Shown here one piece after another: positions 27,398 to 52,070 of a stretch of 64,000 nt of DNA. Position numbers and translations under genes: made by a program. How positions within the stretch are numbered: the stretch's first letter is position 1; the number at the start of each line of letters is the position of its first letter. Source of the DNA: Isoetes taiwanensis (taxonomy: Eukaryota > Streptophyta > Lycopodiopsida > Isoetales > Isoetaceae); the NCBI GenBank assembly GCA_021234155.1, contig JAJEKV010000056.1:3827330-3891329 (forward strand), written 5' to 3'. Under the pieces are notes generated by a model that saw only the letters and a program-made list of their open reading frames with translations, was not told the DNA's origin and ran no database searches.

Positions 27398-27422
27398 AAG
27401 TCGTATTTAATTAAAGTGGGAC
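27398..27422 (+). repeat. 25-bp terminal repeat of the large element, duplicated copy
   Basis: AAGTCGTATTTAATTAAAGT plus GGGAC, the same as 34905-34929 and inverted to 46512-46536. It marks the left end of the partial copy (27398-30662) of the large element inside the duplication. Confidence 0.75.
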
Positions 27423-27671
27423 TCATTCCATTCCCATTTTTTTTCGGAACCCGGTTAATTTACATAAAAAGTAGCACCCCGACCCGAAAACTATCCTTAA
27501 TTCGAATTTTTGAATAAAACTCTGAATCCGAGCTGTGCTGCAGTTTTCCCAGGTTCGCGAGTCGAGAACAAAAACAATGCAACTGAAACAAAGGAAATTC
27601 ATTAAAGTTTGAAACCAAAGATGTAGTTGAAAAAGAATTTTTATTAATAAATTGAACAGATACAATGTATT

Positions 27672-28208
27672 TTACATCGGACGCAGAGACCATGGCGGTC
27701 TTGCTGTCACTACAGTCACATCATCTTGGTAGGTGGTCCACCTTAGGGGATTAACTTGTGGCGCTTCTTCATGCCGTCTGTAAGCCTTGGGGGCAACCTG
27801 AAGAGTGTGGAATGCCTCACGTGGAGGTGCCTCTGGAGCTACCGGCCGACCTGTCCACCCGACTTCTCCACTCGCCTCCCGCAGCCTTTCATCGAATATG
27901 CTCCTTCCCCAACCTCCGTGGATGTTATGCAATGCTTGCAATATGCCTTGAGCTTCCTGGACTTTCTCTTTGTTCTTCGCCTGTTCTTTATTCCCAGGGT
28001 GTAGCGAGCAACCTCTGAATTCGCGAGCAACCTTGTCCCAAAGGCCGGGCAAGAGTGTAGCGTGACCGGGATCTGTGCCAGAACGGTATTTCTTCCGCCT
28101 TGAGCGGGATCCGTGCCGCCTGGAGCGGTCTCGTGATGCCCGGCGGGATCTGTGGCTGGTGTCGGATGCGGTGCACGAACCACGGAGCAAGGAGAGTATG
28201 ATTAACAA
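27672..28208 (-). CDS. basic C-terminal ORF downstream of the FCP1 exon, copy 1
   Basis: A 178-codon frame, Arg-rich at the start (SRRASRDRSRRHGSRSRRKK), then WDKVAREFRGCSLHPGNKEQ, QGILQALHNIHGGWGRSIF and a Pro-rich tail, ending 250 bp inside the terminal repeat. Copy 2 (about 35170-35720) has the same text with frameshifts. It could be the last exon of the ParB-methylase-FCP1 gene: TTTG|GTGAAC near 28690 offers a donor and the stretch between holds three palindromes, as another intron of the gene does. It could also be a separate small gene. Family not recognised. Confidence 0.4.
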   Translation of the reverse strand: MLIILSLLRGSCTASDTSHRSRRASRDRSRRHGSRSRRKKYRSGTDPGHATLLPGLWDKVAREFRGCSLHPGNKEQAKNKEKVQEAQGILQALHNIHGGWGRSIFDERLREASGEVGWTGRPVAPEAPPREAFHTLQVAPKAYRRHEEAPQVNPLRWTTYQDDVTVVTARPPWSLRPM

Positions 28209-28312
28209 TTACGGTGTCATTAGTCAAAGCGTAGAAAAGAAGCGTTGAAATCAAATTACAACGGAGAACATTCATTCCATACAACCGCATCCAATGGCGT
28301 GGGAAGTAGTGT

Positions 28313-29616
28313 CTTTTTCGACTTCATGAGTCGAAAGGCCCATAAAAGTCAAAGTACAACCATTCTCATTAGAATATGGTTGCATCCAATCACACACGGA
28401 AGCATACAAATGCTTTTGTCAACGAGACAACTAGCATGCCTTTCTCGACTCGCGAGTCGAGAAAGTCCCAGGAAACCCAATGTACAAGCATTATCATAAT
28501 AGATTGTACAAGCATTTCATCAACACGACAAGCATGCCTTTCTCGACTCGTGAGTCGAGAAAGGCATCGAAAACTCAATATACAAGTATATTCATTACAA
28601 AATGGTCAATACATGTGTTCACGTTCGATTACAATATTCACACAATTTGACTATCTGAAAGCAGGGGTCACTCTTCTTGTTCACCAAAGTATTTGTCGTC
28701 CATAGCTTTCATGATCGGCTTGCTCTCTGGATCGGGTTCCGTGAGGCTCGGATAGTTCGTAAGCACATCGGCGACAAGAATGGCAAAGAGGGATTCCGCC
28801 AAGACAGGACACAGTCCGAAGGACAACCACCTATCTCTCATATTCTTGGTCGATATGGCTTAGCAATGATTGTATTTTGCGCGTTATGATAGCACTTGTA
28901 GGCGGAGTCATCTATGATCAGCGTGTTGTGTTTGCCAAAGTCCTGGAATTGCTCATAAACACTGTCCAGCCTTTTCACCATTATAGGCTTCCCCTTTGTG
29001 ATGGCTGGATCGAGGTCCTTCACATGCTCGACCCTTTCGTTTCCCCAAACGAACTTGAACTTCAAAACTGAAATGCCGAGAACACCAAGAACATTGACAA
29101 TATTTTTCTTTGCCATACAAGACCATATGCCCACCCGAATCCCCGTGCGGGCACCGGTCAATAATTTCCTTAGCTCACGGGCCTCGGATACACTATTTTA
29201 TGCTTTCTGTTTTCACCGGGATCTGCGAGGTGTTAATCTCGGGGACGTCTTTGTCGTGGTATACTGCAGCTAATACTCCATTGACGTCAAATATTACAAG
29301 CTTGGTGGGACCAGCTGGATCCCAGTTGGAGTTTGGCTCTGACCATATTTCCGGTTCATCGGGATCCAAATGCGGGATCATTAACTTTTCAGGTTCTTTC
29401 TGGCTGTGAGCAGTGTCTTGCTCTGGATTTTCATTCTCATTCTCCTCGCGACGTGAACCGTTGGAATCCATTGACAATGATCCGGACTCGTTGAGCTCGA
29501 ATTCCCTGAAATGATGACATCGGCCGAAGGAACGAAGTTTTCTCGACTCGCGAGTCGAGAATGACAAGAAAAGGTATTGAAAGGAAACGAGTTTTCTCGA
29601 CTCGCGAGTCGAGAAA
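28313..29616. repeat. five copies of the CTCGACTCGCGAGTCGAG palindrome
   Basis: Perfect or near-perfect palindromes of 22-34 bp lie at 28313-28337 (degraded), 28441-28464, 28534-28567 (central CGTG, arms reach ATGCC/GGCAT), 29540-29561 and 29593-29616. The last two lie inside the 136-bp intron. The matching set in copy 2 is at 35822-35844, 35948-35971, 36046-36069, 37043-37064 and 37097-37120. Confidence 0.9.
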
Positions 29617-30662
29617 CACCGTTAGAGCAAAGTAAACTCACCTCAATCTCAGGTTTTCAATAATGTTTTCGGCAGCATTCTGGTCCAATCCTTCGACATC
29701 CTCGTCTCCGTCAGGTTTGTCTCCCTCGTCCTCGTCGTCTTTCTTTGCTTCCATTTGTCTTCCTCCCCTTGAAATGCTCATGAAGCAGATCCAAGTATGA
29801 CTGAATGGTTTCAACCATGTCCTTATTTCCAACCACGGATATAGGTTTCATTCCAAACAGCATAGCCCCCTGAGAGAACAGGCCATTCATGTACCACTCG
29901 CATACAATTTGATCTTCCTCGACCAAGCTGGTTATGAAGTACTTGATAACTCTTGGCCGGATAGGAATTCTATGTATAGGACCGGTCGCACCATCCTTGC
30001 TGACCTTGTCCATCGATGGAACATCCTCCATAAACCTGCCCCCCTTCCAGGGTTCCATCTGCTCTTGAGAGATCATGAACTTGTCGAGATAATGATGCTC
30101 GCTAGACCACCACTTATCCAGGTCGACCGCCGATCTTGAAATCAAAACCAAAACTATGTTGGCAAAGCTTGGTGCCTTCGGCAAGCCAAGTCTGCACTCA
30201 TGATCAAGTTCGTATATGGAGTGCATGATCTTGTTGGTGAAGTTAATATCATTTTGCCCATTGGGAGACGGCGAGTTGTTTGATTGCCCCATGCAAAAAG
30301 ACAAGGAAACCGAAAGTATCGTGTCGGTCATGTCGACACGTCTTGTACCAGCGCTCTATGTCAGCTTTGTCATAAAAAGGGTGGGGTCTTGATCATATTG
30401 ATGGCAAATAGTGCCACGGGTCCAGGTGCCAGTTCCAGACCACCAAATCCCTTGTGTCCCAAAGTAACCAGAAATGGGGGGGAGCTATCGTCTGCCTTAA
30501 ATGGGACCACCCCGAATCCAAGCTTCCTTTTCAGAATTGCCATAGCACGTTCAGGGAAAGGAAGGGTTTTGACGTTACGCTTCAGCTTGGTGTTGATGTA
30601 GGGTTGACATAGACGGTTCAATTCCTTCATGTCTTCCTCATCAAGGGCAGCCTTTTCCTTGT
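28676..30662 (-). pseudogene. methyltransferase-like + FCP1/NIF-like gene, truncated copy 1
   Basis: Copy 1 of the gene described at 36185-39958, lacking its N-terminal ParB-like part because the duplication ends at 30662. It keeps the methylase-like region (TPPF block near 30375; VCEWYMNGLFSQGAMLFGMK near 29890), the intron 29506-29641 with GTGAGT and CAG borders, and the FCP1-like exon from 29505 (KLVIFDVNGVLAAVYHDKDV near 29310; HNTLIIDDSAYKCYHN near 28925). In this copy the middle of the FCP1 domain near 29150 is frameshifted, while copy 2 reads PRAKEIIDWCLARGFEVGIW. Copy 1 reads better at GSLSMDSNGSRREENENE and in the VKDLDPAITKGKPIMVKRLD block. Confidence 0.7.
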
Positions 30663-31310: not shown

Positions 31311-34300
31311 GTGTTGATGCCACTATTGTACTAAATAGATGTGCTTTGATTTCCCAGTTGGTGATCCTGTTGTTGTTGCAGTAATTCATCATAATGTAAT
31401 AATTGCCTATTCTTTGCTTGGAACTGTATCCCGCTCCTTTTGACCACTTTCCCCCATGCGTGTCGTATCCTAGATATCTGTACCCTGTGGCTTCTTCTAG
31501 TTCCTTCCCCTTGTATCTAAATGGCCTGTGTCTTATCTTTGTACCGAAGATCACTATTTTTGTTTTTTCCAGGTTGACTGTCAGACCTATTTCCGTGGGC
31601 AGAAACAAGGAAGCTTAGAGCACAAGGCCAGGCTGGTTTCCGACCAGAGTACTCGACTACGGATCATCTGGTGACTCTAAGGATAATGGTAGAGCAGACA
31701 AGGGAGAGTAACAAGAAGATCATATGCTGTTTCGTGGACTTTAAAAAAGCCTTCGACACAGTGCCTAGAGATAAGCTCCTACTTAGGCTAATAGGCCTAA
31801 GAGCACCAGAAGGGTTAGTAGGATCAATTGCAAGGCTATACCAAAAGGTATATGCCAAAACAGATGGGGGAGGAGATGCCATAGAATGTGACACAGGGGT
31901 AAAGCAGGGATGCCCATTATCACCCACACTGTTTGGGATATACATAGATGCCCTACAGGAATTTGTCAAGGAGAGAGGGGGAGACAGTGAAGCACCAAGC
32001 CTTTATGAAGCGGGATTACCTTGTTAAACTGCCATCGTTCCGGTAGACCTGACTGTATTATCTCATTGAATATTTCTGTTATGATCCCCACTATCTCTGT
32101 CCCTACGCATTTCAACATCTCCGCTGTTAGCCCATATAGATCCGGAGCCTTATTGTTTGCCATTTTGTTTAGCGCCCATGTCACCTCTTCCTTGGTGAAG
32201 GGCGGTTTGTGCCTACCTTCCGGGGCCATGATTGGTACAGCCCCTGTTTTTTGTCTGAGACGTTCCAGGTATCTTGTCCAGTCTATTTCTATTTCCATTC
32301 CTCTCCCCTCCTCTCCCGCTCTTTGTATCCGCTTTTTGTTTTGAGCCTTTTTGATATTGTTCCAAAATACCTTGGGTTTCTTTTGAGGTCTTGACCAATC
32401 CCCATTGATGGTGCTTCAGGTCACGAGCTTTCTTTCTTTTCATTATTTTCACATATTTGTTTGCGTTCCTCCGGTATTCCTCCGTTCCTTTTATGCCGTT
32501 TGACTTTCCTTCGTTGTTCCATGCACCGCTGCGTCAAACCATCTTGACCGACCCAAACGCTATAGCCCTCCTTCCCTTTCTCTTCTCCCGAATGCCATTT
32601 TATTTTGCTTCTTCCAAGATGTCATTCATGTCATTCCCTCGTCCTTCATTCCTTCTCCCCATTCCTTTTCTTGTATTTTTTTTTACCGTTTTTTATGAAT
32701 GTTCCCACTCTGTTTTCTCTGAATTTTACTGTTATTCTGGCCTGTTTGTCTCTTCCTGGCTTGTCATCTGTTCTTCCCCTTGCCACATTCATCTTGAGCA
32801 TTATGGGTCTATGCCCCTCCCTCCTTCCTAGTGGCCATTCCCCTAACTCCATCTTTCCGATTTCCTTTATTGCTTCCTCATTTGCTATCACATAGTCTAC
32901 TATACTGCTCCCGTGAGCGTTTGTGCTTGTGAACTGACATGAGGTCTCCCATCTTCTTAGTCCATTGCATATAATTGTATCTGTAGCTGTACATACCTCT
33001 ATCAGTGTTTCTCCTCTCGCTGTCATCTCCATTTCGTCTACTGTGTCTCGTTGCCATTCTTCCCCTCTTCTGGCCTGTGTCCACTGCCCACTCTCGTTGT
33101 CTATCCCTGCTTTCTGTGCCTGTTCCTGTCTCGTCCTTGCGTTAATATCCCCTACTATGATCAGCAGCCCCTTATCCCTATGTTTCATGACAATCTCTCC
33201 CATGCTTAATAGTTCCAGTTTATCACATTGAGGTGGATAATATACTATTAGCAAATATAGATTTCTGTAATCAAGCATCACAATATTTATAAGCATGTAT
33301 CTTTTATTAATGTCATTTTCCAAAATACATGCTTTTTTGACACTGCTATTCCTAATGTAGCATGCTAGCCCTGCGCTTCCTCTTCCTATTTTGTAATTCC
33401 TTTCCCTCCAACACGTGAACAATGTGTAGCCTGGTTCCTCTGGCGGCGACCTCTTTGTCTTTGTGTTCCCCCGTCTCTACCGGGCATATGATATCCACGG
33501 TCTCTTGCTTTGTGTAGACGTTCTCCATCATCCCAAGGATATCCCGTACAATTCCAGTACCAGATCGTTACTTCTTCCTCCCTTTCTGTACCCCCCTGCC
33601 TCCCTGCTGTTCTAGTGCGTGTCCTTTCTTTAATTGTCCCCTTGTTTTTGCTCCCCCGTCCCCCCCTCTCCCTTTGGCGTTATGTTTGATCTAGGTCCTT
33701 CCGGCCTCTTTTTCGCTTCCCCACCCTAGCGTATGCGTATTTAGAATCTTGGGTCTTTGCTTCCGGTCTATTGACCGGATGGTGTTATTTTCCTTATCTG
33801 TTTTCAGCTGTCCTGTCCTCTCGTTGCCTCCGTTTCGTGTGTCCCATCTCCCCTCGGATCTGTGGGTCCATCCCATCTTCTTCGTTGTCGACTCTTGCGG
33901 TGTGTTCTCTCGGCCTCTTTTTGAGATATAGCTTAGATTCTTTACTCTGCTTGTACTCCTTGGCTCGGCTCTCGACTTTCGCGGAGTTCTTTGTGTAACC
34001 CTGCCTCTGCATAGGTACATCAAGGCCTCTTGTACTTTGAGTCCATTCTGAGTTTGAACCCTGCGTGAATGATTCTTTCCTTGGCTGCCAGGTCCCTCAT
34101 AGTCACATTTATATGTCTCGCCCTCCCTCTCCAAGCTCCTGCCCGGACTGCCTTCACTATCACATTCCTGTGTTCCTGGAACACGTTCTCCATTATTTCT
34201 GCAGTGACACGAAATGTGTCTTCGTTAGGCCTTTCGGCTACTATCAACCTTACATCATGCTTTATCCTTTCCTGTTCTTTGAACTCCACTATGTGCGGTT

Positions 34301-34545
34301 TAATCCTATCAAAACTCTGCCATGCATCTAAATCTATTTGTTTCTTTTCTAATGTCACCAACCTTTGTATGATTTCCGCCTTTTCTCTCTCCACCTTCTC
34401 CATCCTTTTTTGAATTTCCACCTCTGTATCTTCCACCACCGCTTTTCGTTCTTCCACTTTCCCTATCGGCTTCCTTGTTACATTTGCACCACGCTTCGCC
34501 CGGTGTGTTGAGCGCTTCCATCCTCGGTAGTATACCATTCTTCAC
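31311..34545 (-). mobile_element. LINE copy 2 (3'-truncated by the duplication border)
   Basis: Same element as 22745-27035, but starting at GTGTTGATGCC, so the zinc-knuckle end and tail are absent. The RT C-terminal piece reads IGLTVNLEKTKIVIFGTK near 31570. The endonuclease part here is a cleaner frame (33422-32646) and shows IVGDINARTRQEQAQ and VDYVIANEEAIKEIGKM. It contains the same inverted RT core. ORF1 code lies at 34538-33700. Confidence 0.85.
31602..32022 (+). pseudogene. inverted RT core of the LINE, copy 2
   Basis: Identical in protein to copy 1 where both are readable, with the intact start KLRAQGQAGFRPEYSTTDHL. Motifs A (FVDFKKAFDT) and B (GVKQGCPLSPTLF) are present and motif C is missing. 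Both copies share the same inversion borders, so the rearrangement happened before the 6.85-kb duplication. Confidence 0.85.
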
Positions 34546-34870
34546 CCTCGCTCTTGTTGCAAACCACAGCCCTCGAGCTCATTTGGTTGAGTCATACGTA
34601 TGTTGGCTGGCCAGATACTTCTCGCCAGGTCCACAGACCTCGCAACAGCACTTGCACTCTTCACCATGAAATCCAGTTTTCGCTGACCTTAATGCATTCA
34701 GGGCTACCCTGGCATACTCCAACTTCATATGGTATATGCAACAGCAGGTTTCCCTTTCTGATACTTTCTTTATATAAATAGGCTTCAACTTCTCAAAAGC
34801 CTTTAAGCAAACAGGGTGTTCAGGATGTGCCTTTTTGTATTGTTGAAATAGCCTGCGGTGAATAGTGGCC
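34546..34870 (-). pseudogene. Cys-rich domain exon, copy 2
   Basis: Same text as 27036-27365 (IYIKKVSERETCCCIYH, CKCCCEVCG), joined to LINE ORF1 at the same point. The LWRAVV stretch is scrambled here (CTCGAGCTC region), giving a stop. Confidence 0.55.
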
Positions 34871-34904
34871 TTTGGTTAGAAATATTTATGCAATAATAGC
34901 AAGG

Positions 34905-34929
34905 AAGTCGTATTTAATTAAAGTGGGAC
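34905..34929 (+). repeat. left terminal inverted repeat (25 bp)
   Basis: Begins AAGTCGTATTTAATTAAAGT and ends GGGAC. The outer flank is AAGG. Perfect inverted match to 46512-46536. Confidence 0.75.
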
Positions 34930-35169
34930 TCATTCCATTCCCATTTTTTTTTTGAACCGGTTAATTTACATAAAAAGTAGCACCGAGGCAGAAAACTATC
35001 CTTAATTCAAATTTTTGAATAAAACTCAAATGAAAAAGGTCTTTGCAGTTTTCCCCAGTTCATGAAGTCGAGAACAAAAACAATGCAACTGAAACAAAGG
35101 AAATTCATTAAAGTTTGAAACCAAAGATGTAGTTGAAAAAGAATTTTTATTAATAAATTGAACAGATAC

Positions 35170-35720
35170 AATGTATTTTACATCGGACGCAGAGACCATG
35201 GCGGTCTTCTTTGTCACTTCTGATCACATCATCTTGGTAGGTGGTCCACCTTAGGGGATTAACTTGTGGCGCTTCTTCATGCCGTCTGTAAGCCTTGGGG
35301 CAACCTGAAGAGTGTGGAATGCCTCACGTGGAGGTGCCTCTCGGAGCTACCGGCCGACCTGTCCACCGACTTCTCCACTTTCGCCTCCATGACCTTTCAT
35401 CGAATATGCTCCTTCCCCAACCTCCGTGGATGTTATGCAATGCTTGCAATATGCCTTGAGCTTCTGGACTTTCTCTTTGTTCTTCTTTGTTCTTTATTCC
35501 CTGGGGTGTAGCGAGCAACCTCTGAATTCGCGAGCAACCTTGTCCCAAAAGGCGGGCAAGAGTGTAGCGTGGACCGGGATGCGTGCGAGCGGTATTTCTT
35601 CCGCCTTGAGCGGGATCCGTGCCGCTTTGGAGGCGGTCTCGTGATGCTCGGCGGGATCTTTGGCTGGTGTCGGATCGTGCTCGAACCACACGGAGCAAGG
35701 AGAGTATGATTAACAATTAC
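35170..35720 (-). pseudogene. basic C-terminal ORF, copy 2
   Basis: Counterpart of 27672-28208 with several small indels at CG/CHG-rich spots, so the frame is broken (readable blocks: QRSRRASRDR, EAQGILQALHNIHGGWGRSI). Same possible roles as described for copy 1. Confidence 0.4.
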
Positions 35721-35821
35721 GGTGTCATTAGTCAAAGCGTAGAAAAGAAGCGTTGAAATCAAATTACAACGGAGAACATTCATTCCATACAACTGCATCC
35801 AATGGCGTGGGAAGTAGTGTC

Positions 35822-37120
35822 TTTTCGACTCGCGGTCGAGAAAGGCCCATAAAAGTCAAAAGTACAACCATTCTCATTAGAATATGGTTGCATCCAATCA
35901 CACGGAAGCATACAAATGCTTTTGTCAAGCGAGACAACTAGCATGCCTTTCTCGACTCGCGAGTCGAGAAAGTAGAAAGAAACCCAATGTACAAGCATTA
36001 TCATAATAGATTGTACAAGCATTTCATCAACACGACAAGCATGCCTTTCTCGACTCGTGAGTCGAGAAAGGCATCGAAAACTCAATATACAAGTATATTC
36101 ATTACAAAATGGTCAATACATGTGTTCACGTTCGATTACAATATTCACACAATTTGACTATCAAAGCGGGGTCTCTCTTCTTGTTCACCAAAGTATTTGT
36201 CGTCCATAGCTTTCATGATCGGCTTGCTCTCTGGATCGGGTTAGTGAGGCTCGGATAGTTCGTAAAGCACATCGGCGACAAGAATGGCAAAGAGGGATTC
36301 CGCCAAGGCGGGACGAGTCCGAAGGACAACCACCTATCTGTCTCATATTCTTGGTCGATATGGCTTAGCAATGATTGTATTTTTTGCGTTATGATAGCAC
36401 TTGTAGGCGGAGTCATCTATGATCGGCGTGTTGTGTTTGCCAAAGTCTGGAATTGCTCATAAACACGGCCCAAACCTTTTCACCATTATAGGCTTCCCCT
36501 TTGTGATGGCTGGATCGAGGTCCTTCACATGCTCGACCCTTTTCGTTTCCCCAAACGAACTTGAACTTCAAAACTGAAATGCCGAGAACACCAAGAACAT
36601 TGACAATATTTTTCTTTGCCATACAAGACCATATGCCCACTTCGAATCCCCGTGCCAGGCACCAGTCAATAATTTCCTTAGCTCTGGGCCTCGGATACAC
36701 TATTTTATGCTCTGTTTTCACTGGGATCTGCGAGGTGTTAATCTCGGGGACGTCTTTGTCGTGGTATACTGCAGCTAATACTCCATTGACGTCAAATATT
36801 ACAAGCTTGGTGGGACCAGCTGGATCCCAGTTGGAGTTTGGCTCTGACCATATTTCCGGTTCATCGGGATCCAAATGCGGGATCATTAACTTTTCAGGTT
36901 CTTTCTGGCTGTGAGCAGTGTCTTGCTCTGGATTTTCATTCTCATTCTCCTCGCGACGTGAACCGTTGGAATCCATTGACAATGATCCGGACTCGTTGAG
37001 CTCGAATTCCCTGAAATGATGACATCCGGCCGAAGGAACGAGTTTTTCGACTCGCGAGTCGAGAATGACAAGGAAAGGTATTGAAAGAAAGCGAGTTTTT
37101 CGACTTCGCGAAGTCGAGAA
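35822..37120. repeat. palindrome family members in copy 2
   Basis: 35822-35844 (one base pair short), 35948-35971, 36046-36069, 37043-37064 and 37097-37120 (changed centre, CTTCGCGAAG). Same sites as in copy 1. All lie in introns or the downstream region, none in the coding exons. Confidence 0.85.
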
Positions 37121-39958
37121 ACACCGATTAAACAAAGTAAACTCACCTCAATCTCGGGTTTTCAATAATGTTTCGGCAAAGCATTACGGTCCAATCCGAC
37201 ATCCTCGTCTCCGTCAGGTTTGTCTCCCTCGTCCTCGTCGTCTTTACTGCTTCCATTTGTCTTCCTCCCCTTGAAATGCTCATGAAGCAGATCCAAGTAT
37301 GACTGAATGGTTTCAACCATGTCCTTATTTCCAACCACGGATATAGGTTTCATTCCAAACAGCATAGCCCCCTGAGAGAACAGGCCATTCATGTACCACT
37401 CGCATACAATTTGATCTTCCTCGACCAAGCTGGTTATGAAGTACTTGATAACTCTTGGCCGGATAGGAATTCTATGTATAGGACCGGTCGCACCATCCTT
37501 GCTGACCTTGTCCATCGATGGAACATCCTCCATAAACCTGCCCCCTTCCGGGGTTCCATACGCTCTTGAGAGATCATGAACTTGTCGAGATAATGATGCT
37601 CGCTAGACCACCACTTATCCAGGTCTACCGCCGATCTTGAAATCAAAACCAAAACTATGTTGGCAAAGCTTGGTGCCTTCGGCAAGCCAAGTCTGCACTC
37701 ATGATCAAGTTCGTATATGGAGTGCATGATCTTGTTGGTGAAGTTAATATCGCTGCCCATTGGGGAGACAAAGAGTTGTTTGATTGCCCGGCATGCAAAA
37801 GACAAGGAAACCGAAAGTATCCGGTCGGTCATGTCGGATTAACGTCTTGTACCAACGCTCTATGTCAGCTTTGTCATAAAAAGGGTGGGGTCTTGATCAT
37901 ATTGATGGCAAATAGTGCCCACGGGTCCAGTGCGGCCTGGACCACCAAATCCCTTGTGTCCCAAAGTAACCAGAAATGGGGGGAGCTATCGATGCGCCTT
38001 AAATGGGACCACCCGAATCCAAGCTTCCTTTTCAGAATTGCCATAGCACGTTCAGGGAAAGGAAGGGTTTTGACGTTACGCTTCAGCTTGGTGTTGATGT
38101 AGGGTTGACATAGACGGTTCAATTCCTTCATGTCTTCCTCATCATGGGCAGCCTTTTCCTTGTAATAATCAAAATCATGGTATTCATTAGATGCAACGTT
38201 GCGAGAACTCCGTGATGCCTTCTTCTAACTTATGACGCCGCCGCTTTAGGGGCTGTGGCATAATCCTTTGCGTCCCGCAATTTAGAACTCTGGTCTTCCT
38301 CGGTGGGATTGTTCCCTCAAGATTTTGCCTTATAGGTCAAAGCGTTTCTTTGTCCGTGAGGCCCTGTATCCTCTTCATGAACTGCTTGTCAAACAACTTG
38401 GGGTCGGGCCTGCTTGGAAATTCTCCATTCTTTGTCCTTGACTTGCCTCTTGTCCATTGAGCCCATATTTCAGTCCATTTCTCCCAGACCGCCTCAGTGC
38501 TAAGAATGAGGTCGTATTGGTCTGAGAGAGACTCCCTGCCTTTCCTTGGTGTTCTCTTCTTCTTCTTCTCCTCTTCTTCCTCTCCTTCGTCATCTTCCTG
38601 TCCCTCCAGCAGAACATATCTGCATAGTTTCTCAAAGGTCTTCCACTTATCCGAGGGAGCCCTGTTTCCTTTAGGACGCTGAGGACAACCCAATGCTTTC
38701 CACTGTTGCCTAGCGTGTATGATCTGGTCAGGATAAGGGCTGCATTCAGACAATGTACCAATGTCAGAGCATGAAAGTATCTACAAACACCCTCGCTTGG
38801 CATATCTATCCTTGATCCTTTGCGGCACCTCCTTCTCCGTCTGCAATACTTGAGCCGCCCTAACTGAATGCTGACCGTCTACAACCCGAGCCGGACGTCT
38901 TTTCCCTTCAGATCTTCCTCGGACTTCCGGTGAACAACTCAATTGTCGATCTGCTAAAGGTATGACATCCGCGGGCATTGGATCTGCAGCGAGGATGTCG
39001 CACCATCGAGGTTGAGAATCTCCGGCATGTGTGCTGGATTAAATTCCACAATGGTTGAACAAGGCGGCATCTCCGTGCAAACCTTCAGCCGTCTAATGTC
39101 AGCAGCGGCTTGTGTGATATTCCCAACGGATAATCTTGAGCTAGGCGCTCCATTTTACGTGCCCCTCCGAGAAATCCTGATCTGATCATCCGGATCGAGG
39201 TTTGGGGAGTCGACCATATCTTCGTCTCCTTAGATCATCGACTCCTCCCGTGTGGTGTCATCATCCCCATCTTTGTTTTTGGTGGACTTTTTTGTGTATG
39301 AACCACAACATTCCCCCGCAGAGAGTGTTGTAGAGTCTTGACCTGGTAGAAGTGAAGCTCCCCGTATTGAACAGTTTTTCACGACTCGGAAATCTCCATA
39401 CCAAGCTCCTCGGATGTTAGGGTTCCGGCCTCCTTCATCCCTTCGGATCCTTCCACCCAAGGTTTCGACAATTTAAAGGCGCCGCCTTTTTTCGGTGCCC
39501 TTAGCCTTGCTCATGGAAGAGTGAGAAGAATTTGAAAGCGCCAATTTTTGGTGCGATAGAACTTACTCTTCGGCGGGTCCTCGACATGTAGTGTTAAATG
39601 CTTGAATGGCGCAGAGGCGGAGGCGCCAACACCGATTTTCTTGTACTTGTCTCGGAGCTCTTCTTGTCCCTTTGGTGTAGAAGCAGATCTTTCTCCTTCC
39701 CACTTGTCGATACCTCGACATACCACCAAGAATCTGCCATTGTTTCAAGAAGCTCGTCTCCGGTCCCTCGATGACGAAGAATGGAGTTGACCCGGTGATC
39801 ACCGGTGAGTCCGAGGTGAATGCCGCAAGAAGAAACGGATGGATCGGTTAAGGTATTCCGACAAAGAAAAACCTCGAGCTCACAGGGTGTTTGTCTTCTT
39901 CTTCTTCTTTTTGTGGCGAAGCATCCCCTCCGGCGCCTCGCTTCTTGGACGGAGTCAT
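36185..39958 (-). CDS. ParB-like + DNA-methyltransferase-like + FCP1/NIF-like fusion gene
   Basis: Probable start at 39958 (MTPSKKRGAGGDASPQKEEE). Then TPFFVIEGPETSFLKQWQIL and KGQEELRDKYKKIGVGASAS; about 350 codons in, the ParB-like block: NITQAAADIRRLKVCTEMPP, STIVEFNPAHMPEILNLDG, RVVDGQHSVRAAQVLQTEKE (DGQHxxxAA is the ParB/sulfiredoxin hallmark). An acidic Lys/Glu linker follows. The methylase-like part has TPPF and YDKADIERWYKT near 37880, the place of the (D/N/S)PPY motif IV, and later CEWYMNGLFSQGAMLFGMK, which aligns with DPFxGxGTTxxAAxxLGR of N4/N6 methylases; both motifs are changed, so activity is doubtful. After a 136-bp intron comes an FCP1/NIF HAD domain: FDVNGVLAAVYH (DxN instead of DxD), VYPRPRAKEIIDWCLARGFE, IIDDS. 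Likely end is KYFGEQEE near 36185 or a further exon. Frameshifts are frequent. The joined reading across the intron keeps phase. Confidence 0.6.
37011..37146 (-). other. 136-bp intron holding two palindromes
   Basis: Donor AG|GTGAGT follows the acidic EGDKPDGDEDV exon. Acceptor CATTTCAG precedes GGAATTCGAG. Joining the exons gives codons ..L-R-L-R-E-F-E-L-N-E.. without a frame change. The same intron in copy 1 is 29506-29641, also 136 bp. Two copies of the CTCGACTCGCGAGTCGAG palindrome fill much of it and are damaged in this copy. Confidence 0.75.
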
Positions 39959-40337
39959 TTCTATATGCCCTCTCATCCTCTTCGGACGACTCTGTAAATT
40001 AAGTTTCCTCCGCGCGTTGTGAGTTTTAGGACTGCATGTAAAAAAGATCGGGCGTGTTCTTTAATTTGAAGTTAAGGACATGCAATCATTTATGAAAAAA
40101 AGCGGGCTAAGGGTACAGCACGGTCGGCTTTAGCCCGCCCAAACACTATTTCGAAATTGAATCACATCAAGGGACTAAGTGAGTGGAGCGTAGTTTATCT
40201 TCCCTGCGGCATTGGGGAACTTCGAGGTCGGAGGGGATCATCGGCCGTGGCGACTTCGGGAATGGCGCCAGCGACGGTAAGCGCAATGGCGCTTTGCATA
40301 TGTGTGTTTTTCCTGACCGCGCGTCCTATTGCAAGCA
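39959..40337. promoter_or_regulatory. putative divergent promoter region
   Basis: Only about 380 bp separate the likely start of the leftward gene (39958) from the first credible exon of the rightward gene (40338). It contains a short inverted pair, GCGGGCTAA at 40100 and TTAGCCCGC at 40129, which can form a hairpin. No clear TATA box. Assignment rests on gene layout only. Confidence 0.35.
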
Positions 40338-40559
40338 GTTGAATTGATCGATGAGCACGGAGCTAAGGTAGGAAGCGGAGAGGAGCTGCCAGACACCGGA
40401 ACTCTACACTGCGGCGCCATGGAAAGGGGATACGCGAGAATCGCAGTGATACGAGTAATAGATGCGAATACACTCTTGAAGAGACCCCATGAAGAAGCAA
40501 AAGACTCGGGTGAGGCTGCGGGATCCGTGATATGGCCCAAGGAATTACCGCGTGAAGAG
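40338..40559 (+). CDS. exon similar to plant DUF8039 (CACTA-type transposon domain)
   Basis: The exon lies between a 3' splice site (TTGCAAGCAG) and a donor (GAAGAG|GTGAGT). It encodes VELIDEHGAKVGSGEELPDT, HCGAMERGYARIAVIRVID and GSVIWPKELPREE. The layout resembles DUF8039 of plant transposon proteins: a value such as VAxG, then LHGxPxxxGYxxVxVxxV, then a WPK near the end. It probably is the N-terminal part of the rightward gene whose DUF7869 region starts near 43.4 kb. The exon at 43421 shows the same style of module (MVFAEGIITAVDPFDSV, ERLGDEHLG). Frame is intact here; recognition is from memory. Confidence 0.4.
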
Positions 40560-40849
40560 GTGAGTTTGAGAGATGCCTATGTTATTTCGCTTGTAGAACA
40601 TGCCGTATGTGTTTAAATAATGGAACTGCCGATAAGCTCGACGGAGTTCAAGTGTTTCCTTGTCCAAAGATTTTCGGCTTCCAGAGATGATTTACTCTCT
40701 AGGTTGAGAGATGCTCGGCAAGGAAACATTGGATCGGGGGTAAAGAACAGTTCCGTTTTAGGTCTGTTTTTCCATGGACTGTTTACTTGGAATGTTGTAC
40801 ATAGATCAGGCTAGGACTAAGGCCCAGGAGATGCGGTTCAAATGCATCC

Positions 40850-42130
40850 TCTTGTAGTTAGTCGGAGGGGCCTCCACCCTGTCCGAACCACTCCTCTTCG
40901 CAATATTCGAGGAAGATGGTTCGAAGGAGAGTGGCTCAGACAGGCTAGAGGCACTTGGGACTAAAAACAGGAGAATAGAAAGTGCAGTACTTGTAGAGAA
41001 TGCAAGCCTTGGCTTCCTCTGTGGTTTCCCTGTGGTTAGTTGTAGAGGCCTCCACCCAGTCCGAGCCCCTCCCCTTCGCACTATTCGACGAAGATGGTTC
41101 GAAGGAGAGTGACTGGACGGGTCGAGGCCCTTGCTACCTGAACATGTGAGAATTGGCTGGCTAAGGGATTCTCGACTTGCGAGTCGAGAATGCTTGGCTT
41201 CCTGTCTACATTCTCGACTCGCAAGTCGAGAATGCCTTGGCCATCCAGAACTCCGGTTAGTACACATGGAGTGCCGGTTGGGTAAGGCATTCCCGACTCG
41301 CGAGCCGAGAATGCATACAGCAAGCTCTGTGGAATGCATGCATTCTGCGACCACACACAGGAGAATTGGGTTGCTAAGAGTTGGCCTGCAGACAGTAAAA
41401 AACACTTCCCTTCGCAATGTCCGAGGAAGATAGAAGGAGAGTGTTTAAGACTGTCTGCAGGCCAGCTCTAGAGTGCACTAGAGCCTGCGTTTTCTCGACT
41501 CACGAGTCGAGAAAGCAGCCAGCAACTCTGTGGTTAGTCGCCGAGGCCTCCACCCAATCAGAGCCCATCCCCTTCGCAATATTCGGCGAAGATGGTTCGA
41601 AGGAGACGGTCTTTGATTGGGTAGAGGCCACTGCGACCACACACAGGAGAATTGGGTTGCTAAGAGTTGGCCTGCAGACAGTCAAAACCACTTCCCTTCG
41701 CAATGTCCGAGGAAGATAGAAGGAGAGTGGTTGAGACTGTCTGCCCAGGGCCAGCTTCGAATGCACAGAACTGCGTTTCACCGACTCCGCAGTCGAAAGC
41801 CGGCCCCACGGTGGTTAGTCATGGGAGGCCTCCACCCGGTCCGGGTTCCCCTCTTCGCAATATTCGATGAGCATGGTTGAAGGAGAGTGGCTCGAGACTG
41901 GGTGGAAAGCACCTCGACTTACACAAAGAGCCATGGGGGTATCACACATTCGACTCCACGGAAGTCGAGAAGGTCAGCAGGAGGTTCTAAAGAATGTGAA
42001 GACATTGGGTAGGCGGGCAATCCCGTCATGAAGTCGAATCCCTCAACACATAGCTTGATCCGAGTGTACCTCCCTCTTCTCGCCCTCGGAAAGTCGAGAA
42101 GTTCGACTTCATGAGTCGAAAGAAGGCCTA
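40850..42130. repeat. array of hairpin modules and palindromes
   Basis: Four modules (about 40857-40955, 41036-41130, 41531-41630, 41814-41911) each contain GAGGCCTCCACCC, CTTCGCAATATTCG, AAGATGGTTCGAAGGAGAG and a return arm resembling GGGTGGAGGC, so each can fold back on itself. Two further modules (41365-41470 and 41640-41765) have GGCCTGCAGACAGT and its inverted copy ACTGTCTGCAGGCC around TTCGCAATGTCCGAGG. Between them lie palindromes of the CTCGACTCGCGAGTCGAG family at 41169-41190, 41211-41232, 41290-41311 and 41491-41514, with decayed ones near 41780, 41948, 42076 and 42101. No gene fits. It sits between the two divergent coding parts of the large element, probably in an intron. Confidence 0.75.
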
Positions 42131-43420
42131 CTTCCTTATTTGTTGGCAAGCTGAAGTATTCTCAACTTCGCCACTCCCTTCTGCATGTCTCCCTGCGGTG
42201 GATTTCTTTGTGAGTTAGAAATGGAGATTACGTAGGAAGCAATTCCTATTGCGAATTCTTCTTTGGGAGAAAGACATTCCTAGTTATTTTTACTTAATGC
42301 TCGCAATATCTTACTTCCTAACACCGGTCTCGATGATTTCTCTCTCGGTTGCTTGCTACTATAACCACTATTCTCACTTGTGCATGTACAATGTATTCAA
42401 TTCAACCACAAGCAAGAAAAAGATAACAAAAAACAGAAAACAATACAAAGATTATTAAGATTAATGAGAAAACAGAGAAAAGTGGAGAACAGTACAGAGA
42501 AAAGTGGAGAACAGAACAGAAAAATGAGATTAAAAAAGGGTATGATATTACAAAAACATACCTGGAAGATTTCTGGATGAGGAGGAGGCTTCCGACTTCG
42601 ATTCCATGTGGGTATAGTCGTTGACAAAGCGTGAATAAGGATTTGTCGGGCTGTAAATTGTATCAGGGATTAATAAGAGCCTCTAACAACAGAATATAAG
42701 AAAAAATGCACTAAAAGACTTACAGAAAACTAAAAAGCAGCACAAAAAAGGGCCTCACTTTCTTCTCGGTGATGCCCGCTCGAACAATGAACTGCTTGAG
42801 AACCCGGTATTTGGGCGCGCCCCGATCGGTCGACCAAAAGCTCTTTTGTCATAAGATGGTATTTGGAATCGCTCGGTTTGATCAATCGCCTGATCGGTAA
42901 AAGCGGGACGCCCTAAGGAAACGAGGAGCTCGGAAGACCCGATCCGGAAAAACAGGGGAGGAAGAATGGTGGGGAGAGGAAGAGGGTGCGATTAATTCTG
43001 GCTGCACCCTCGACCCTCGTAAAAGTGCAATAATATACTTACATCGCGTGTGGGCCATGCCCTCCATGGCGATGGCGGTGCGGATTCTTGGCGCGGGCCC
43101 GCGGTTTCAGACCTCTGAAGAGGCGCCACGTGGCCATGCCAAGATATGAAAGGGTTAGTTATATGTTTATATATGTTGTCTTATGTATTTAATAAGGTTT
43201 CAATGGTTGAATAGTATCAATGGTATATATGGTTACAATGTTCACATATGGTTTAGAATGAGTGTGGTTGTATGCTTTAATATGGTTATATGATTTTAGT
43301 TAATATGGTTGTATGATTTAATATGGTTATATTTAATATGTTTGTATGGTTTTATATGGTTCATATGGTCATATTTGTGGTGTTTGGGGCTATATGGTTT
43401 TAATGTGAGCTTTTTCATTC
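42131..43420. other. intron-like AT-rich DNA with simple repeats
   Basis: An A-rich stretch with GAGAAAAGTGGAGAACAG repeated lies at 42470-42520. From 43150 to 43400 many units of TATATGGTTATATGATTT form a degenerate minisatellite. It ends in TTTTTCATTCAG at 43420, a good 3' splice site. No supported gene. Confidence 0.55.
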
Positions 43421-46300
43421 AGGGAGCATGTGAGATGAGTAAAATGGAGCCAGGGAAGTCCAAAGGAGGCCATTGCCCTAGGCTCCAATGGAGGAGGATG
43501 GGTTGCCTTTTGTTGCACCCTTGCAACCAGATGGTATTTGCAGAGGGCATAATAACTGCAGTTGATCCATTTGATAGTGTGAATGATGAGAGGCTGGGAG
43601 ATGAACATCTTGGAGTTGGCATTGTGAAGCTTCTTATCGAAGTTGATACTATCATGTCGGGAAGCTCTAGTGATTGCATTGTGTGCGGAGGCTCTTTGGA
43701 GTCCCAAGCTCGAGTTGAGATGGCCAATTAGATTTATTACACACAAGAATGGTGATACTCTAGAATGCCCTCTTGAACTACACACCCCAAGGCCCACCCA
43801 AGGCCATGTGGAAGATTTGGTGGTCGATGAGCATCCTTTGATCAAAAGGAAGAGACGCTATGTCTTTCATAAAAGGCAGACCAAAAGGTGCCCAAGAGGC
43901 CTAGAAGTGACAAATATTTAGAAAGGATGGAAAGTATGGCACCAACCAAAGAAAACCCGGAGGCAATTAGGGGACAAGAGTGTTGCAACCTAGATTGCAC
44001 AAGTGCATTACAATGTGGATGACCTCGTGCGAGATAAGGTCCCAATACATTGGACAGCTTCAAAAAAGATAGGATTAATTTCATTTACTCCTTGTGTAGG
44101 AATTCCAGCTATGATGAAAAACAGGGGACGGTGCTATATCAATTGAGGGGAATGAAGGTATGTATGAGAGCATTGAGATGGATTCTTGGGGTGAGCAAGT
44201 CTTCATTTTACGAATCTTTGGGGCAGGTTAGAAAAGGGCACACTTTGTTCCAACATGGTAATGCACTCACTTTGAAACCTAGAGCAAATACTCTAAAGGC
44301 CATTCGGTCTTGAGAGCTTTGTGAGATACATGTCTCAATCTATGCCCCACAAGTCGAAGGTGAGCGAACGGTGTGTGAGAGTGGTGCAAAGAGTGTTGCC
44401 ACAACACTATATCCAAAAGGAGTGCCTTAAGGAGGTCAACTCCATCCTAGAAAACTCTTGGAGGTAGGCCTCTTTCTCAATCACATTTCAGCAAGTTATG
44501 GAGCACTCACTTCTCGGGGACGTGAGTGTCCTACAACACATGCCATTCTCAAAGTGCAACACTTGCATTCAACTCAAGGATACACTTGCATCAAGCTGCA
44601 ATAGAGAAAGAAAGAATGGCAATTAGGGAGCAATTTGCAGATCACCAAAGAGACCAAATATCATGTAGGCGGTTGTATTGGCGGTGGAGAACATTTTTTA
44701 CGAGATGCGGTAGGACAAATTTTTGTGTATAATTCATGATAAGATGGACCAACACAAGACTTTCTTGCCAAAGCTAGATCCTTTACCCAAGCGTTGTCAA
44801 AACGCTTTTTAGGATGAAAGTAAGTCCAAGGGTGTATTAACACATGGTCATGGAACTGGAACATATGGTCATTTTGTGCTTGATCTATGGAGAGATGATC
44901 CAAACTTCCATGTGAGCTCTATTTTCAAGTGCTTGAGAACACTAGAGAAAGGATCGATAGAAGGGAGGAGGTATTCCCCTCAAACACCCATTTTTGAGGC
45001 TTTGATGGATGATCAACCGCTTTGTTACCAAAGGCGGATAAAAAGCTCACATCCAAGGTGCCTAGTGAATCAAGGAGGACTTGGGATGATTTCCCTTACT
45101 AGAGAAATCAGCACCTGAGGAGCTATGTGTTGAGTTGGACAACTGTTGGAAAGAAAACAAGAATAGATGGATGTTTGGGGCAATGTCATACTTGGCGGTG
45201 ATGGGGAGTATTCAAAGTTGTGAAAGTGGGATTCATGATGGTTGGGCATACGCATGATGATATTGATGGATTCTTTGGAACTTTCTCCACCAAGCTCAAG
45301 AGAGAAAACGCGTGACCACTCTCCCCGAACTAATGGATGTGTTTGAGAGCTGCATTGACCCCAACCCAATGGCTTTCTTGATGGATGAGGTTGCTTGATT
45401 GGAAATCATTTGTAGAAGGATACTTGCTAGATGGCAAGGACGGTTGATGAGGACACACAAAGCCACTTCAATTCAAGTTTTGGGTTAGGGATGGAATACC
45501 AATCATGCAATATAAGTGGAGACCAGGTGACAAGTTGTGGATGCCCTGTACACAAGGTATCGAGTTGTGGCAAAGGGTGTCTTCTTTGGTGAAGTTCTCA
45601 TTCCTAAAGGGCAGCCAAAACCACTACCTCCCTTCAAGGCAGTCAAAGACTCTAGCCAAGCTGGTGAAGGGCATCAAGGATTACATAACGCCTTTGGGAT
45701 GATGTTGAAATGGAAAGCACACCTCCACTCTTAAGAAAAATCAAATGGACTCCCCTAATCAAGTACTGGGAGAAAGTTGTAACATGCTTAGAAACCGAAC
45801 AGACCATGTGGGAGGGAGCTAAGAGACGGGTTCTTGCCGAGTCAAGATGGGAGGGTTCTCAAGGTGCAAGCACGTCTAAGAATGCTCACTTGGGTCCCAA
45901 GTGGTTTGTGGGAAGTAAGGCCTCAAAGCCGAAGTGGTTTGATCTTCGAGTGGGATCCCTTTGAGGACATCAAGGAAGGATACTTTGTGCTAGTAAGGGC
46001 GATGATGAGGGACCGTCCAATATGGTTAGGGGTGGCACTCTCGATGTGACCACCACTATGCCCGATGGAGAGGAGTTAGGCCCCGGATTCCAAATTCAAT
46101 ATTGGGAGCCCATTGGGAGGCACAAGAAGGGCAACTTGAAGGAGCAATACACCGACTCTTTGGGAGAAGAAGTGGAGGCCAAATTATGCTGACCCTCAAA
46201 GGAGGGAATTGGTGGAGTGTGTGGTATGGTCATATCCAAGTTCTCACATTGCAAAAGACAACACACACAAGATCCCAAGAAAGGAGATGGACAAGGCCAT
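43421..46300 (+). pseudogene. DUF7869-type transposase-like protein
   Basis: After the splice site at 43420 the first block is GCLLLHPCNQMVFAEGIITA, then ERLGDEHLGVGIVKLLIEVD (DUF8039-like). From 44050: DRINFIYSLCRNSS, RGMKVCMRALRWILGVSKSS, FQHGNALTLKPRA, then a Cys pair near 44555. The catalytic-looking part is IIHDKMDQHKTFLPKLDPLP (44725), LTHGHGTGTYGHFVLDLW, ELCVELDNCWKENKNRWMFG (45120) and, one frame over, FMMVGHTHDDIDGFFGTFST (45230). DxMDQ-K, xLDNCxxENKNR and GHTHxDID are the signature of DUF7869, found in many eukaryotic transposon proteins. C-terminal blocks continue to about 46300. Many frameshifts and stops, for example TAG near 44805, break it. It is the probable mobility protein of the 11.6-kb element. 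Confidence 0.75.
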
Positions 46301-46511
46301 GAGCAACCTCCATGCTATATCATTGTATGAGGGTGCATAATATTGAGAAGTTTGAAAACTTTCTCAACTAGTGGTTTGTAAAATTTATGAGGAAAACAAG
46401 TAACCCAATTCTATGTGTGTCATGTGTAATTCTATTCAAGCAATCAATTCAGAAATTTCTTTTATGGTGTGTGAGTCCCATTTTCAGTCCGAGTCCCAAA
46501 ATTCAAGATTT

Positions 46512-46536
46512 GTCCCACTTTAATTAAATACGACTT
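46512..46536 (-). repeat. right terminal inverted repeat (25 bp)
   Basis: Starts GTCCC and ends ACTTTAATTAAATACGACTT on the plus strand. Outer flank AAGG. Perfect inverted match to 34905-34929. Confidence 0.75.
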
Positions 46537-46540
46537 AAGG

Positions 46541-48431: not shown

Positions 48432-48800
48432 CACTACAAGGCACAAGGGTCTTTTGTCACGTGCAAATTTGTCACGCCAATAAAGTTTGTCACGTATTTT
48501 AATTTTGCCACTCGTGACAAAGGCAAATCTTTTTTTGCAACTCGTGACAAAAATTCAAACTCAAAAACGGTGACAAAAGACTAAAATTTGACACGCGTGA
48601 CAAATGTTTGTCATGCATGACAAACCTTAGTAGCTTTTTTCACGTGTGACAAATATTTGTCACGCGTGACAAAACCTTAGTAGCTTTTGTCACGCGTGAC
48701 AAACTCTTGTCATGTGTGACAAATATTTGTCATGCGTGACAAAACCTTAATAGCTTTTATCACGCGTGACAAACTTTTATCACGCGTGACAAATAGTATA
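48432..48800 (+). mobile_element. CACTA-type transposon end with subterminal palindromes
   Basis: CACTACAAGGCACAAGGG at 48432 is the classic CACTA (En/Spm) terminal motif, preceded by TAG as a possible 3-bp target copy. Behind it, about 15 copies of the palindrome TTTGTCACGCGTGACAAA and single-arm forms (TTGTCACG, CGTGACAAA) fill 48450-48800, some in a repeated unit with CCTTAGTAGCTTT. Dense subterminal motifs of this kind bind the transposase in CACTA elements. I found no matching right end (CTTGTAGTG) by eye in the rest of the window, so the element is partial or extends beyond. Confidence 0.7.
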
Positions 48801-50574: not shown

Positions 50575-52070
50575 AGTTTGGAACCGGCGCCTAGGAAGGG
50601 GTTCTTTGTTCTCACTCTTGGCTGTCAAGATCTAAACCCTACAGATTTAGTAGGGTTTATGTATCAAGGTACCAAAATCGCGTCGTTTGCTAATCCCATC
50701 GTTTAAATAAGAGTTCATGTCCCAAGAAACATCTCCGAAAGTAAAAGTTGGAAATCCAATGCATGGATGTGCCAACCCCCAAATTTCCCCCTTTCCCACA
50801 CAGGGGCACGGCCAAGAAATGGGGTGTTCCTCCAGTTCGACCACTCTAGCAAGCTTAGAATGTGCTTTTAACTTTGTGCATGAGTCAAAAACATCGAATC
50901 TACTTTAGGGACTGTGTTTGCAAGCTCTCGACCACTTCCGAGGCAGGGAAGGCTGCCAAAACCTTGTTGTCTTCACGCATGATTTCAAAGCATGTAAATT
51001 ACTCTAGAGACGAACTTGAATTTATGATTAATGGAGGTAATCTCTACTCGATATGAGCAACTAGTTAACCTTTCGCACAATACACTCTTTGCATAGTGCG
51101 TTAATCTAAACATAGCATGTACTGGGGTTTGATCAAACATCTACTCCTCAAACATATGTCCAAGAATGACTCTGCCGTCTAGATGCAACAGCACAGTCGA
51201 ACTGTCATGTTGTGCCTTATGGCAACGCCCGATCGCATAATGTCTAGTTTGTTACGAGCCATCGCGAAGTTTGGAACCGGCAACTCGGAGCGGTTTTTTG
51301 TTCTTGCTCTTGGGGTCTCTCTTTAGGCCCTTGAGAAAGCTCTGTACATAAGTTGTCGACCACTTCAGAAGCAGGGAAGGCTGTCAAAATCCTACAGATC
51401 TAGTAGGGTTTAAGTATGGAGGCATTAAAAAATGCTCCATCTGCCAATCCCACCGTTCAAGTGGTAGCTCATATCCCAAGAAATGTTTTTTGAAAATAAA
51501 AAATGGGCATCCACCGCACGGATGTGCCAACCACCGCACAGATGTGCCAACCCCCAAATTTCCCCTTTTTTGACGAGGAAATGATGTGGTCCCCCAGTTT
51601 AGCCACCCTAACGAGCCCGAAAAGCTATTTTGACTTCGCGCATGATTTCAAAGCATCTAAATTACTCTAGAGACCAACTTTTCATTTATGATTAATGGAG
51701 CTAATCTGTAGTCGATATGAGCAACTAGTTAACCTTTCGCTCAATGCACTCTTTGCCTAGTGCGTTAATTTAAACATAGCACGTACTAGGTAAGCCAGGC
51801 ATTTGATCAATCGTCTACTCCTCAAACATATATCCAAGACTAAATCTGGCCATCTAGATGCACGAAGTTTGGAATCGGCACATCGAAAAGGTTTTTTGTT
51901 CTCTCACTTGGCATCGCCTTTGGACCCTTGAGAAAACTCTGCACATAAGTTGTCGACCACTTCAGAGGCAGGGAAGGCTGTCAAAACCAAAACCCTACGG
52001 ATTTAATAGCTTTTAAGTATCGGGGCATAAAAAATGCTCCATCTGCTAATCTCACCGTTCATGTGGTAGA
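50575..52070 (+). repeat. complex tandem repeat array, left part
   Basis: Units of about 0.6-0.74 kb share blocks in fixed order: AAGTTTGGAAYCGGC, GGTTYTTTGTTCT, CTCGACCACTTCNGAGGCAGG, AARCCTACRGATTTARTAG, TCCCAAGAAAYRT, GGATGTGCCAACCCCCAAAT, GATTTCAAAGCATGTAAATT and CGATATGAGCAACTAGTTAACC. Anchors: the TCCCAAGAAA block at about 50729 and 51472, with the next copy across the hAT element at 58974. No unit codes for a protein. The array resumes unchanged after the hAT insertion. Confidence 0.85.

Follow-up and report, generated by a model that had tools for sequence, protein, structure and literature searches.

The question raised by this locus is what a ParB-like gene does beside a DUF7869 transposase, and whether such a pair recognises its own element. 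We analysed 64,000 nucleotides of Isoetes taiwanensis (assembly GCA_021234155.1, contig JAJEKV010000056.1, positions 3,827,330 to 3,891,329 of the forward strand; hereafter the window), in which a DNA transposon occupies 34905-46536. The element carries two divergent genes, a DUF7869 transposase and a partner with a ParB-like part, and both genes of the window copy are interrupted by frameshifts and stops. It also carries a repeated palindrome. We found four element lineages, each with its own repeated palindrome in non-coding parts, and this arrangement appears to be new. On balance we lean towards the reading that this is a DUF7869 transposon whose ParB-like partner marks its own element via the palindromes of the family, which would then be putative parS-like sites.

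A sequence-only reading of this DNA had proposed an 11.6-kb DNA transposon, and the perfect 25-bp inverted ends, the AAGG on both sides and the GAGTCCC motifs common to both subterminal regions were all confirmed (Table 1). Further GGGACTC/GAGTCCC 7-mers are present at 43699 inside the element, at 60451 outside it and at 27418 in a partial copy of its left part. With up to 2 mismatches allowed, the 25-bp end occurs 1,661 times in forward and 1,709 times in reverse orientation in the 1.66-Gb genome (3,370 in all; reversed control 0). Among the first 100 perfect end copies listed, 52 form inverted pairs within 15 kb, and neighbouring ends were paired as +- in 26 cases, as -+ in one and on the same strand in none. 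By size, 12 of the 26 paired elements measure 3.5-5.8 kb and the other 14 measure 11.0-14.8 kb, so that paired ends stand about 4 or 11-15 kb apart; this list holds perfect 25-mers, and copies with a mismatched partner end fall outside it. Identical, in-register 4-bp flanks were found in 21 of 23 end pairs (the window copy and 22 of the 26 listed pairs), compared with a shuffled-partner mean of 1.09. One of the 21 matches, in copy C79, lies in an A-run and is uninformative, copy C16 matches over 5 bp, and copy C6 shows no match. The sequence-only reading had named single ends, unmatched 4-bp flanks and genes that never co-occur as grounds for rejecting it, and it withstood all three checks, as ends are often paired, flanks agree in most of the pairs read, and the two genes are found together (see below). 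The segment 34905-46536 is a degraded full-length member of an abundant DNA transposon family that duplicates 4 bp of its target and has two or more size classes.

The assignment of the transposase to DUF7869 also held. P0001, an 830-aa open stretch from a better-preserved copy, matches DUF7869 (PF25273) with E 8.4e-44. A first look at the genome gave 9,909 DUF7869 candidates, with none in 14 control genomes, and 1,443 candidates for an N6/N4 methyltransferase, the enzyme that accompanies related transposases as described below. From each group 150 candidates were scored and all were above the Pfam cut-off; the best DUF7869 locus among them reached 187 bits, compared with 150 bits for P0001. 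In the families that we read, a DDD triad was looked for by eye, and candidate catalytic Asp residues are present in the motifs 'IHDKMDQ/VIDGMDQ', 'QLDN' and 'HTHDDID/HTHDQID'. Relatives of the transposase were found neither in viral contigs nor in phages. LFY is not known outside streptophytes, and four SAM_LFY loci place the genome in this group.

The transposase and its partner gene occur side by side elsewhere in the genome, a point that the sequence-only reading had put forward as a test. We compared the best 150 matches per list, within 15 kb and with shifted controls, and the counts are lower bounds. In the window family, 106 partner matches were set against 150 transposase matches; at least 16 of the latter have a partner nearby, compared with a mean of 0.2 and a maximum of 3 in the control, and 15 of these 16 partners are divergent and upstream, in agreement with the proposed divergent multi-domain partner. 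The same arrangement recurs with other DUF7869 transposases: at least 24 of 150 loci have a methyltransferase nearby, 22 of them divergent upstream and 17 at 4.9-6.2 kb (control mean 0.66, max 4), and at least 20 of 150 have a ParB-like stretch of the type found in the related family FA, 19 of them divergent upstream (control mean 0.45, max 4). The methyltransferase and ParB lists coincide at a minimum of 4 places.

We examined three related families, FA, FB and FC, whose transposases show 23-27% identity to P0001. At E 1e-3, no part of the window-family partner, its HAD exon included, has a match in the FA, FB and FC loci. In FA and FC, a divergent gene with a ParB-like stretch was recognised by eye (in FA, YYVLGGTHSYKA...EAKVLAISHN). 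FA also has an N6/N4 DNA methyltransferase of canonical type, which contains the motifs DIPYG and DAFSGSGT and matches PF01555 with E 5.4e-15, a second match to this profile among the relatives has E 1.6e-18, and in FC broken methyltransferase remnants were seen by eye. FA ends begin AACAACGT. Two copies of FA, at C1034 and C1037, show 95-98% identity over long aligned parts and are flanked by different 4-bp duplications, read by eye as GTAG and ATTG; they were therefore inserted separately and fairly recently, which means that a methyltransferase-bearing element has transposed in the fairly recent past. As a side observation, the ParB stretch is identical in protein at C1034, C1037 and C1059.

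Selection was estimated as the ratio of nonsynonymous to synonymous substitution rates (dN/dS) from open copies, which is a biased choice. In the window family, the DUF7869 half had a median of 0.31 (5 copies, range 0.10-0.60), the middle exon of the partner one of 0.21 (6 copies, 0.11-0.52) and its HAD exon one of 0.42 (3 copies, 0.31-0.83), and values of 0.37 (upstream exon, 5 copies), 0.47 (ParB, one pair) and 0.58 (N part of the transposase, one pair) were obtained for the remaining parts. The window-family partner thus looks to be under purifying selection. The methyltransferase exon of the relatives gave a median of 0.03 (10 of 13 regions, 45 pairs, 0.01-0.57, mean dS 1.5), and this methyltransferase is under strong purifying selection. 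Since very divergent DUF7869 elements carry a divergent ParB and methyltransferase gene under strong selection, we consider the partner to be part of the transposon machine.

The palindromes were first noticed when open frames in non-coding parts repeatedly gave the same peptides. In the window, TTCTCGACTCGCGAGTCGAGAA has 12 matches with at most 5 of 22 mismatches, 7 in the element, 5 in the partial copy and none elsewhere (reversed control 0). Nine full-length copies hold 0 to 7 sites (inner 18 positions, at most 3 mismatches), and the five sites of copy C76 are all perfect. Genome-wide, with at most 1 mismatch, the window-family 18-mer CTCGACTCGCGAGTCGAG has 7,950 sites and the FB 20-mer 4,459, with 0 for both reversed controls. 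The other lineages have palindromes of their own, GTATGAATTCATAC in FA, GTATTCCGGAATAC in FB and CTATGCGCGCATAG in FC, and each is present several times with mostly unrelated neighbouring sequence. Six further regions upstream of DUF7869 matches were chosen before their sequence was inspected (one, L075, overlaps the already-read L069 by 541 bases), and all six carry one motif 9-25 times with at most 2 mismatches. Two of them are FA-like (GTATAAATTTATAC), three FB and one FC; because these are known classes, the data amount to four motif classes rather than ten separate cases. In regions of another class, each motif appears no more than once, apart from an array at 48 kb of the window, and Markov controls gave 0 or 1 site in 90 trials. 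Of the 50 perfect window-family palindromes listed, 28 stand inward of a perfect end and no more than 13 kb from it, and at most 2.6% of the genome is that near any end. As a separate observation, 4 of the 7 mismatches in the six imperfect palindromes of the element (36047-41513) are C-to-T or G-to-A changes in CpG, a decay that would be expected if the host methylates the sites at CpG.

The best evidence that the palindrome works for the element comes from non-autonomous copies. We compared four 3.5-5.8-kb copies with the nine full-length copies. Common ends extend for about 64-109 bp on one side and 81-243 bp on the other, and otherwise the two groups share only matches of up to 52 bp (E 1e-3). 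The matching interior stretch is a palindrome array in copy C1n and one palindrome with a 1-bp deletion in copy C46n; copies C4n and C89n contain palindromes within 3 mismatches, and thus the palindrome is kept in 4 of 4 non-autonomous copies. Besides the ends, it is the only sequence that we recognised as common to the four non-autonomous and nine full-length copies. Since all four keep it, the palindrome would serve the whole element in cis rather than its two genes alone.

Based on these results, we propose the following mechanism. The DUF7869 transposase would act at the element ends, where the 4-bp duplications are observed and the chemistry is presumed. The ParB-like partner would load on the palindromes of its own family, in introns and between the genes, and mark the element in cis; that this protein reads the palindrome is suggested by the clustering of the sites, their lineage-specificity and bacterial precedent. 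In the relatives, the N6/N4 methyltransferase might then methylate the bound element or its promoter, as has been proposed in print for Ectocarpus. In the window family, the methyltransferase may have been lost or become unrecognisable and a HAD domain added, and the partner may bind and recruit. Non-autonomous copies would retain ends and palindromes because both are needed in cis. The mark could let the element evade silencing or sense its copies, could repress the two-way promoter or could aid transposition. A broader proposal, which we regard as possible rather than probable, is that this transposon group has its own parS-like system, in which the ParB-fold protein and private palindrome of each lineage recognise self copies, gene-poor ones included, and methylation or, here, the HAD protein marks them.

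Several results weigh against marking by a ParB-like partner, and some of them concern the proteins. No ParB Pfam match was obtained for the window-family proteins or for the FA and FC pieces. The ParB-like stretch of the window family aligns to that of FC with Z 4.0 (2 of 500 shuffles), whereas the alignment to FA has Z 2.2 and is out of place. A profile of five ParB-like members ranks unrelated chains first (E 0.14-0.27), with sulfiredoxins at E 0.8-2; sulfiredoxins and ParB share the same fold. The ParB model TIGR03764 matches one of the five members (E 0.0022), and one member matches an unrelated model (E 0.0047). Among the best 150 window-family transposase matches, neither PF01555 nor FA-type ParB was found nearby (0 of 150 each). 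The middle part of the window-family partner has no PF01555 match, and its comparison with the N6/N4 methyltransferase gave an hhalign probability of 0.1% and shuffle Z values of -1.0 to 0.0, in weak tests made on shallow alignments. The FB locus (12.8 kb) has an open upstream reading frame but no ParB or methyltransferase match; at C1093, another locus with the FB palindrome, both are present (L069, L075). Other results concern the sites. At a limit of 3 mismatches, copy C16 lacks the palindrome and copy C22 has a single one, and 22 of the 50 perfect palindromes in the list fall outside the 13-kb range inward of a perfect end. One of nine control pieces of the window holds an unrelated palindrome array of its own, TGTCACGCGTGACA; this array, at 48575-48795 with about ten copies of TTTGTCACGCGTGACAAA, has no DUF7869, methyltransferase or ParB match nearby.

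The main rival, which we consider rather unlikely, is that the DUF7869 transposase itself binds the palindromes as internal sites and that the ParB-type partner acts otherwise. Subterminal repeats of other transposons are transposase binding sites. The palindromes differ between lineages in step with the transposases, which could therefore be the proteins that read them; the palindromes accompany the ends into all four non-autonomous copies; and the window array of different sequence stands without a ParB match nearby. On the other hand, the sites read in the window family are some 0.6-6 kb away from the ends. They occupy introns, the stretch past the HAD exon or the space that separates the genes, with no set at both ends, and the ends have a short motif of their own, GAGTCCC.

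Somewhat less likely again, a host factor could use the palindromes as operators or enhancers, in which case they would not be directly connected with the partner. Such a role would fit the window copy, FA, FB and FC, where sites are found in the region that separates the divergent genes. However, the five sites of copy C76 lie elsewhere than between the genes, one host factor is not expected to use a different site in each lineage, and the non-autonomous copies retain the sites without the two genes.

A further explanation, taken from the sequence-only reading, is that the partner is an FCP1-like phosphatase acting on RNA polymerase II. Its HAD exon does match a NIF/FCP1-type profile (PF03031), and phosphatases of this type have the catalytic motif DxDx(T/V). 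Here the motif is DVNGV, or DANGV in copy C1042, with Asn in place of the second Asp, and the HAD exon has no match in the FA, FB and FC loci. Nothing in the data pointed to an action on RNA polymerase II, which we regard as very improbable. Weakest of all is the idea that the partner is a host or foreign passenger gene captured by one element, for although the relatives carry a methyltransferase similar to DNA methylases of phages, the same partner type, in the same orientation and at a similar distance, accompanies very divergent transposases with its coding parts under purifying selection, and this co-occurrence in divergent families rules a passenger gene out in nearly every respect.

Returning to the partner of the window family, a single spliced gene probably encodes all three of its parts, ParB-like, middle and HAD. 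The intron junctions are conserved, with GAG|GTGAGT at the end of the middle exon in 5 copies and ...TTTCAG before the HAD exon in 6 copies, and in copy K1064 the reading frame was seen by eye to continue across the middle-HAD intron, which carries one or two palindromes, some decayed. The ParB-methylase-FCP1 fusion that had been read from the window is only partly retained. The HAD part stands, as the last exon P0004 of a better copy matches PF03031 with E 3e-10. The ParB label, which stays weak in the window family, is based on a motif seen by eye, on low scores and on what has been published about the Ectocarpus protein. The methylase part is clear in the relatives and was not demonstrated here: the SPPF tetrapeptide of the middle part presumably fits an N4-type methyltransferase motif, the glycine-rich methyltransferase motif is absent from it, and its kinship to the methyltransferase, having received no support from hhalign or shuffling, was set aside. 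Sequence searches of the PDB with P0002-P0004 gave no matches, phage searches with P0002 and P0003 gave none, and the PHROGs matches were weak (best E 0.019). The methyltransferase exon of the relatives matches 947 phage records, ten of which were listed at 29-33% identity, and two loci in viral contigs, where one open reading frame looks by eye like a plain methylase and the other match covers 13 residues. One phage protein was scanned, and it contains PF01555 without a ParB match.

In bacterial ParB-parS partition, a ParB protein binds clustered palindromic sites. The transposon group resembles it in having clustered palindromes and a putative ParB-like protein, and differs in being a eukaryotic transposon outside any partition context; many of its sites follow one another at intervals of about 27-32 or 40-43 bp in arrays, which can be set against the bacterial arrangement. 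KDZ transposons carry TET/JBP genes and thus a DNA-modification enzyme of their own, with a transposase and an enzyme that differ from those of the DUF7869 group. The sequence-only reading had assigned its partner with ParB-like, methylase-like and HAD-phosphatase-like parts to no named transposon superfamily, yet a ParB plus methyltransferase partner has been described: Sola1-1_Ec32 of the brown alga Ectocarpus, 21.5 kb long, has an opposite-strand gene for a 1104-aa protein with ParB-like and N4/N6 DNA methyltransferase parts (PMC12477816). The same source mentions green and red algal cases of ParB and methyltransferase partners and suggests that such proteins bind and modify their own transposon (PMC12477816). 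Like Sola1-1_Ec32, the window element is a large DNA transposon with an opposite-strand partner gene, here putatively ParB-like; unlike it, the window family has a HAD fusion, lineage-specific palindromes and a streptophyte host, and no recognisable methyltransferase. The portion of the report that describes Sola1-1_Ec32 mentions neither a HAD part nor a binding site (PMC12477816). According to the section on Sola in a second source, this superfamily has 4-bp target duplications and variable terminal repeats, is known from moss, and is mostly 2-9 kb in size with some elements over 15 kb (PMC10741241). The 4-bp duplications are shared by 21 of 23 window-family pairs and by the FA copies with GTAG and ATTG. 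We infer that the window family may belong to, or near, the Sola-1 group, a placement based on the shared partner type and 4-bp duplication.

With respect to the ParB-methyltransferase accessory proteins, the divergent orientation is present in the window family and a recognisable methyltransferase in its relatives alone; accordingly, the window-family partner looks like a variant and not a plain member of this class. The partner type is known, and the HAD fusion looks like a new variant of it. From titles and the beginnings of abstracts, in a search that mostly excluded subscription literature, we recognised no publication on a HAD/FCP1 fusion or lineage-specific palindromes in such elements. 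A passage on ParB-methyltransferases carried by transposons proposes that they modify the element in which they reside, and it names no target (PMC12477816). The palindromes provide a concrete candidate site for each lineage, and with four natural motif classes, self-recognition becomes directly testable. Considering that the group looks very large in this genome, bacterial-type N6/N4 DNA methylation in a genome of the plant lineage can be searched for at known places.

Table 1. Features of the transposon and of its partial copy, in window coordinates.
Feature	Position	Strand	Basis
Partial element copy (left 3.3 kb), inside the local tandem duplication	27398..30662	+	
Palindromes in the partial copy, one poor (27547) and four close	27547, 28442, 28540, 29540, 29594		
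AAGG target-site duplication, left copy	34901..34904		
Left terminal inverted repeat, 25 bp, perfect	34905..34929	+	
Subterminal GGGACTC (equal to the right-end GAGTCCC motif)	34925..34931	+	
Palindrome TTCTCGACTCGCGAGTCGAGAA, perfect	35949..35970		
Palindrome, 1 mismatch	36047..36068		
NIF/FCP1-like HAD exon of partner, frame-broken	36188..36882	-	tblastn of P0004
Palindrome, 1 mismatch, in the putative middle-HAD intron	37044..37065		
Middle ('methylase-like') part of partner, frame-broken	37180..38780	-	tblastn of P0002
ParB-like exon of partner, frame-broken	38742..39199	-	tblastn of P0003
Upstream exon of partner	39267..39791	-	P0005 match
Palindrome, 1 mismatch, between the two genes	41169..41190		
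Palindrome, 1 mismatch	41211..41232		
Palindrome, 2 mismatches	41290..41311		
Palindrome, 1 mismatch	41492..41513		
DUF7869 transposase gene, frame-broken	43342..46334	+	tblastn of P0001 and P0006
DUF7869 core	about 45040-45753	+	within the 43342..46334 gene
Two subterminal GAGTCCC motifs, starts 46473 and 46491	46473..46497	+	
Right terminal inverted repeat, 25 bp, perfect	46512..46536	-	
AAGG target-site duplication, right copy	46537..46540		

The partial copy at 27.4 kb had been set aside as independent evidence for the ends, and rightly so: it is part of a 6.9-kb tandem duplication (23813-30662 and 31311-38163, 94.9% alike), which takes in the left flank and the left 3.3 kb of the element. 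Elsewhere in the window, the open reading frames at 55502-56440 and 57545-58051 have what we take to be a hAT-like look. Two related repeat blocks, 50620-52071 and 58960-60264, are about 74-91% alike and lie some 8 kb apart.

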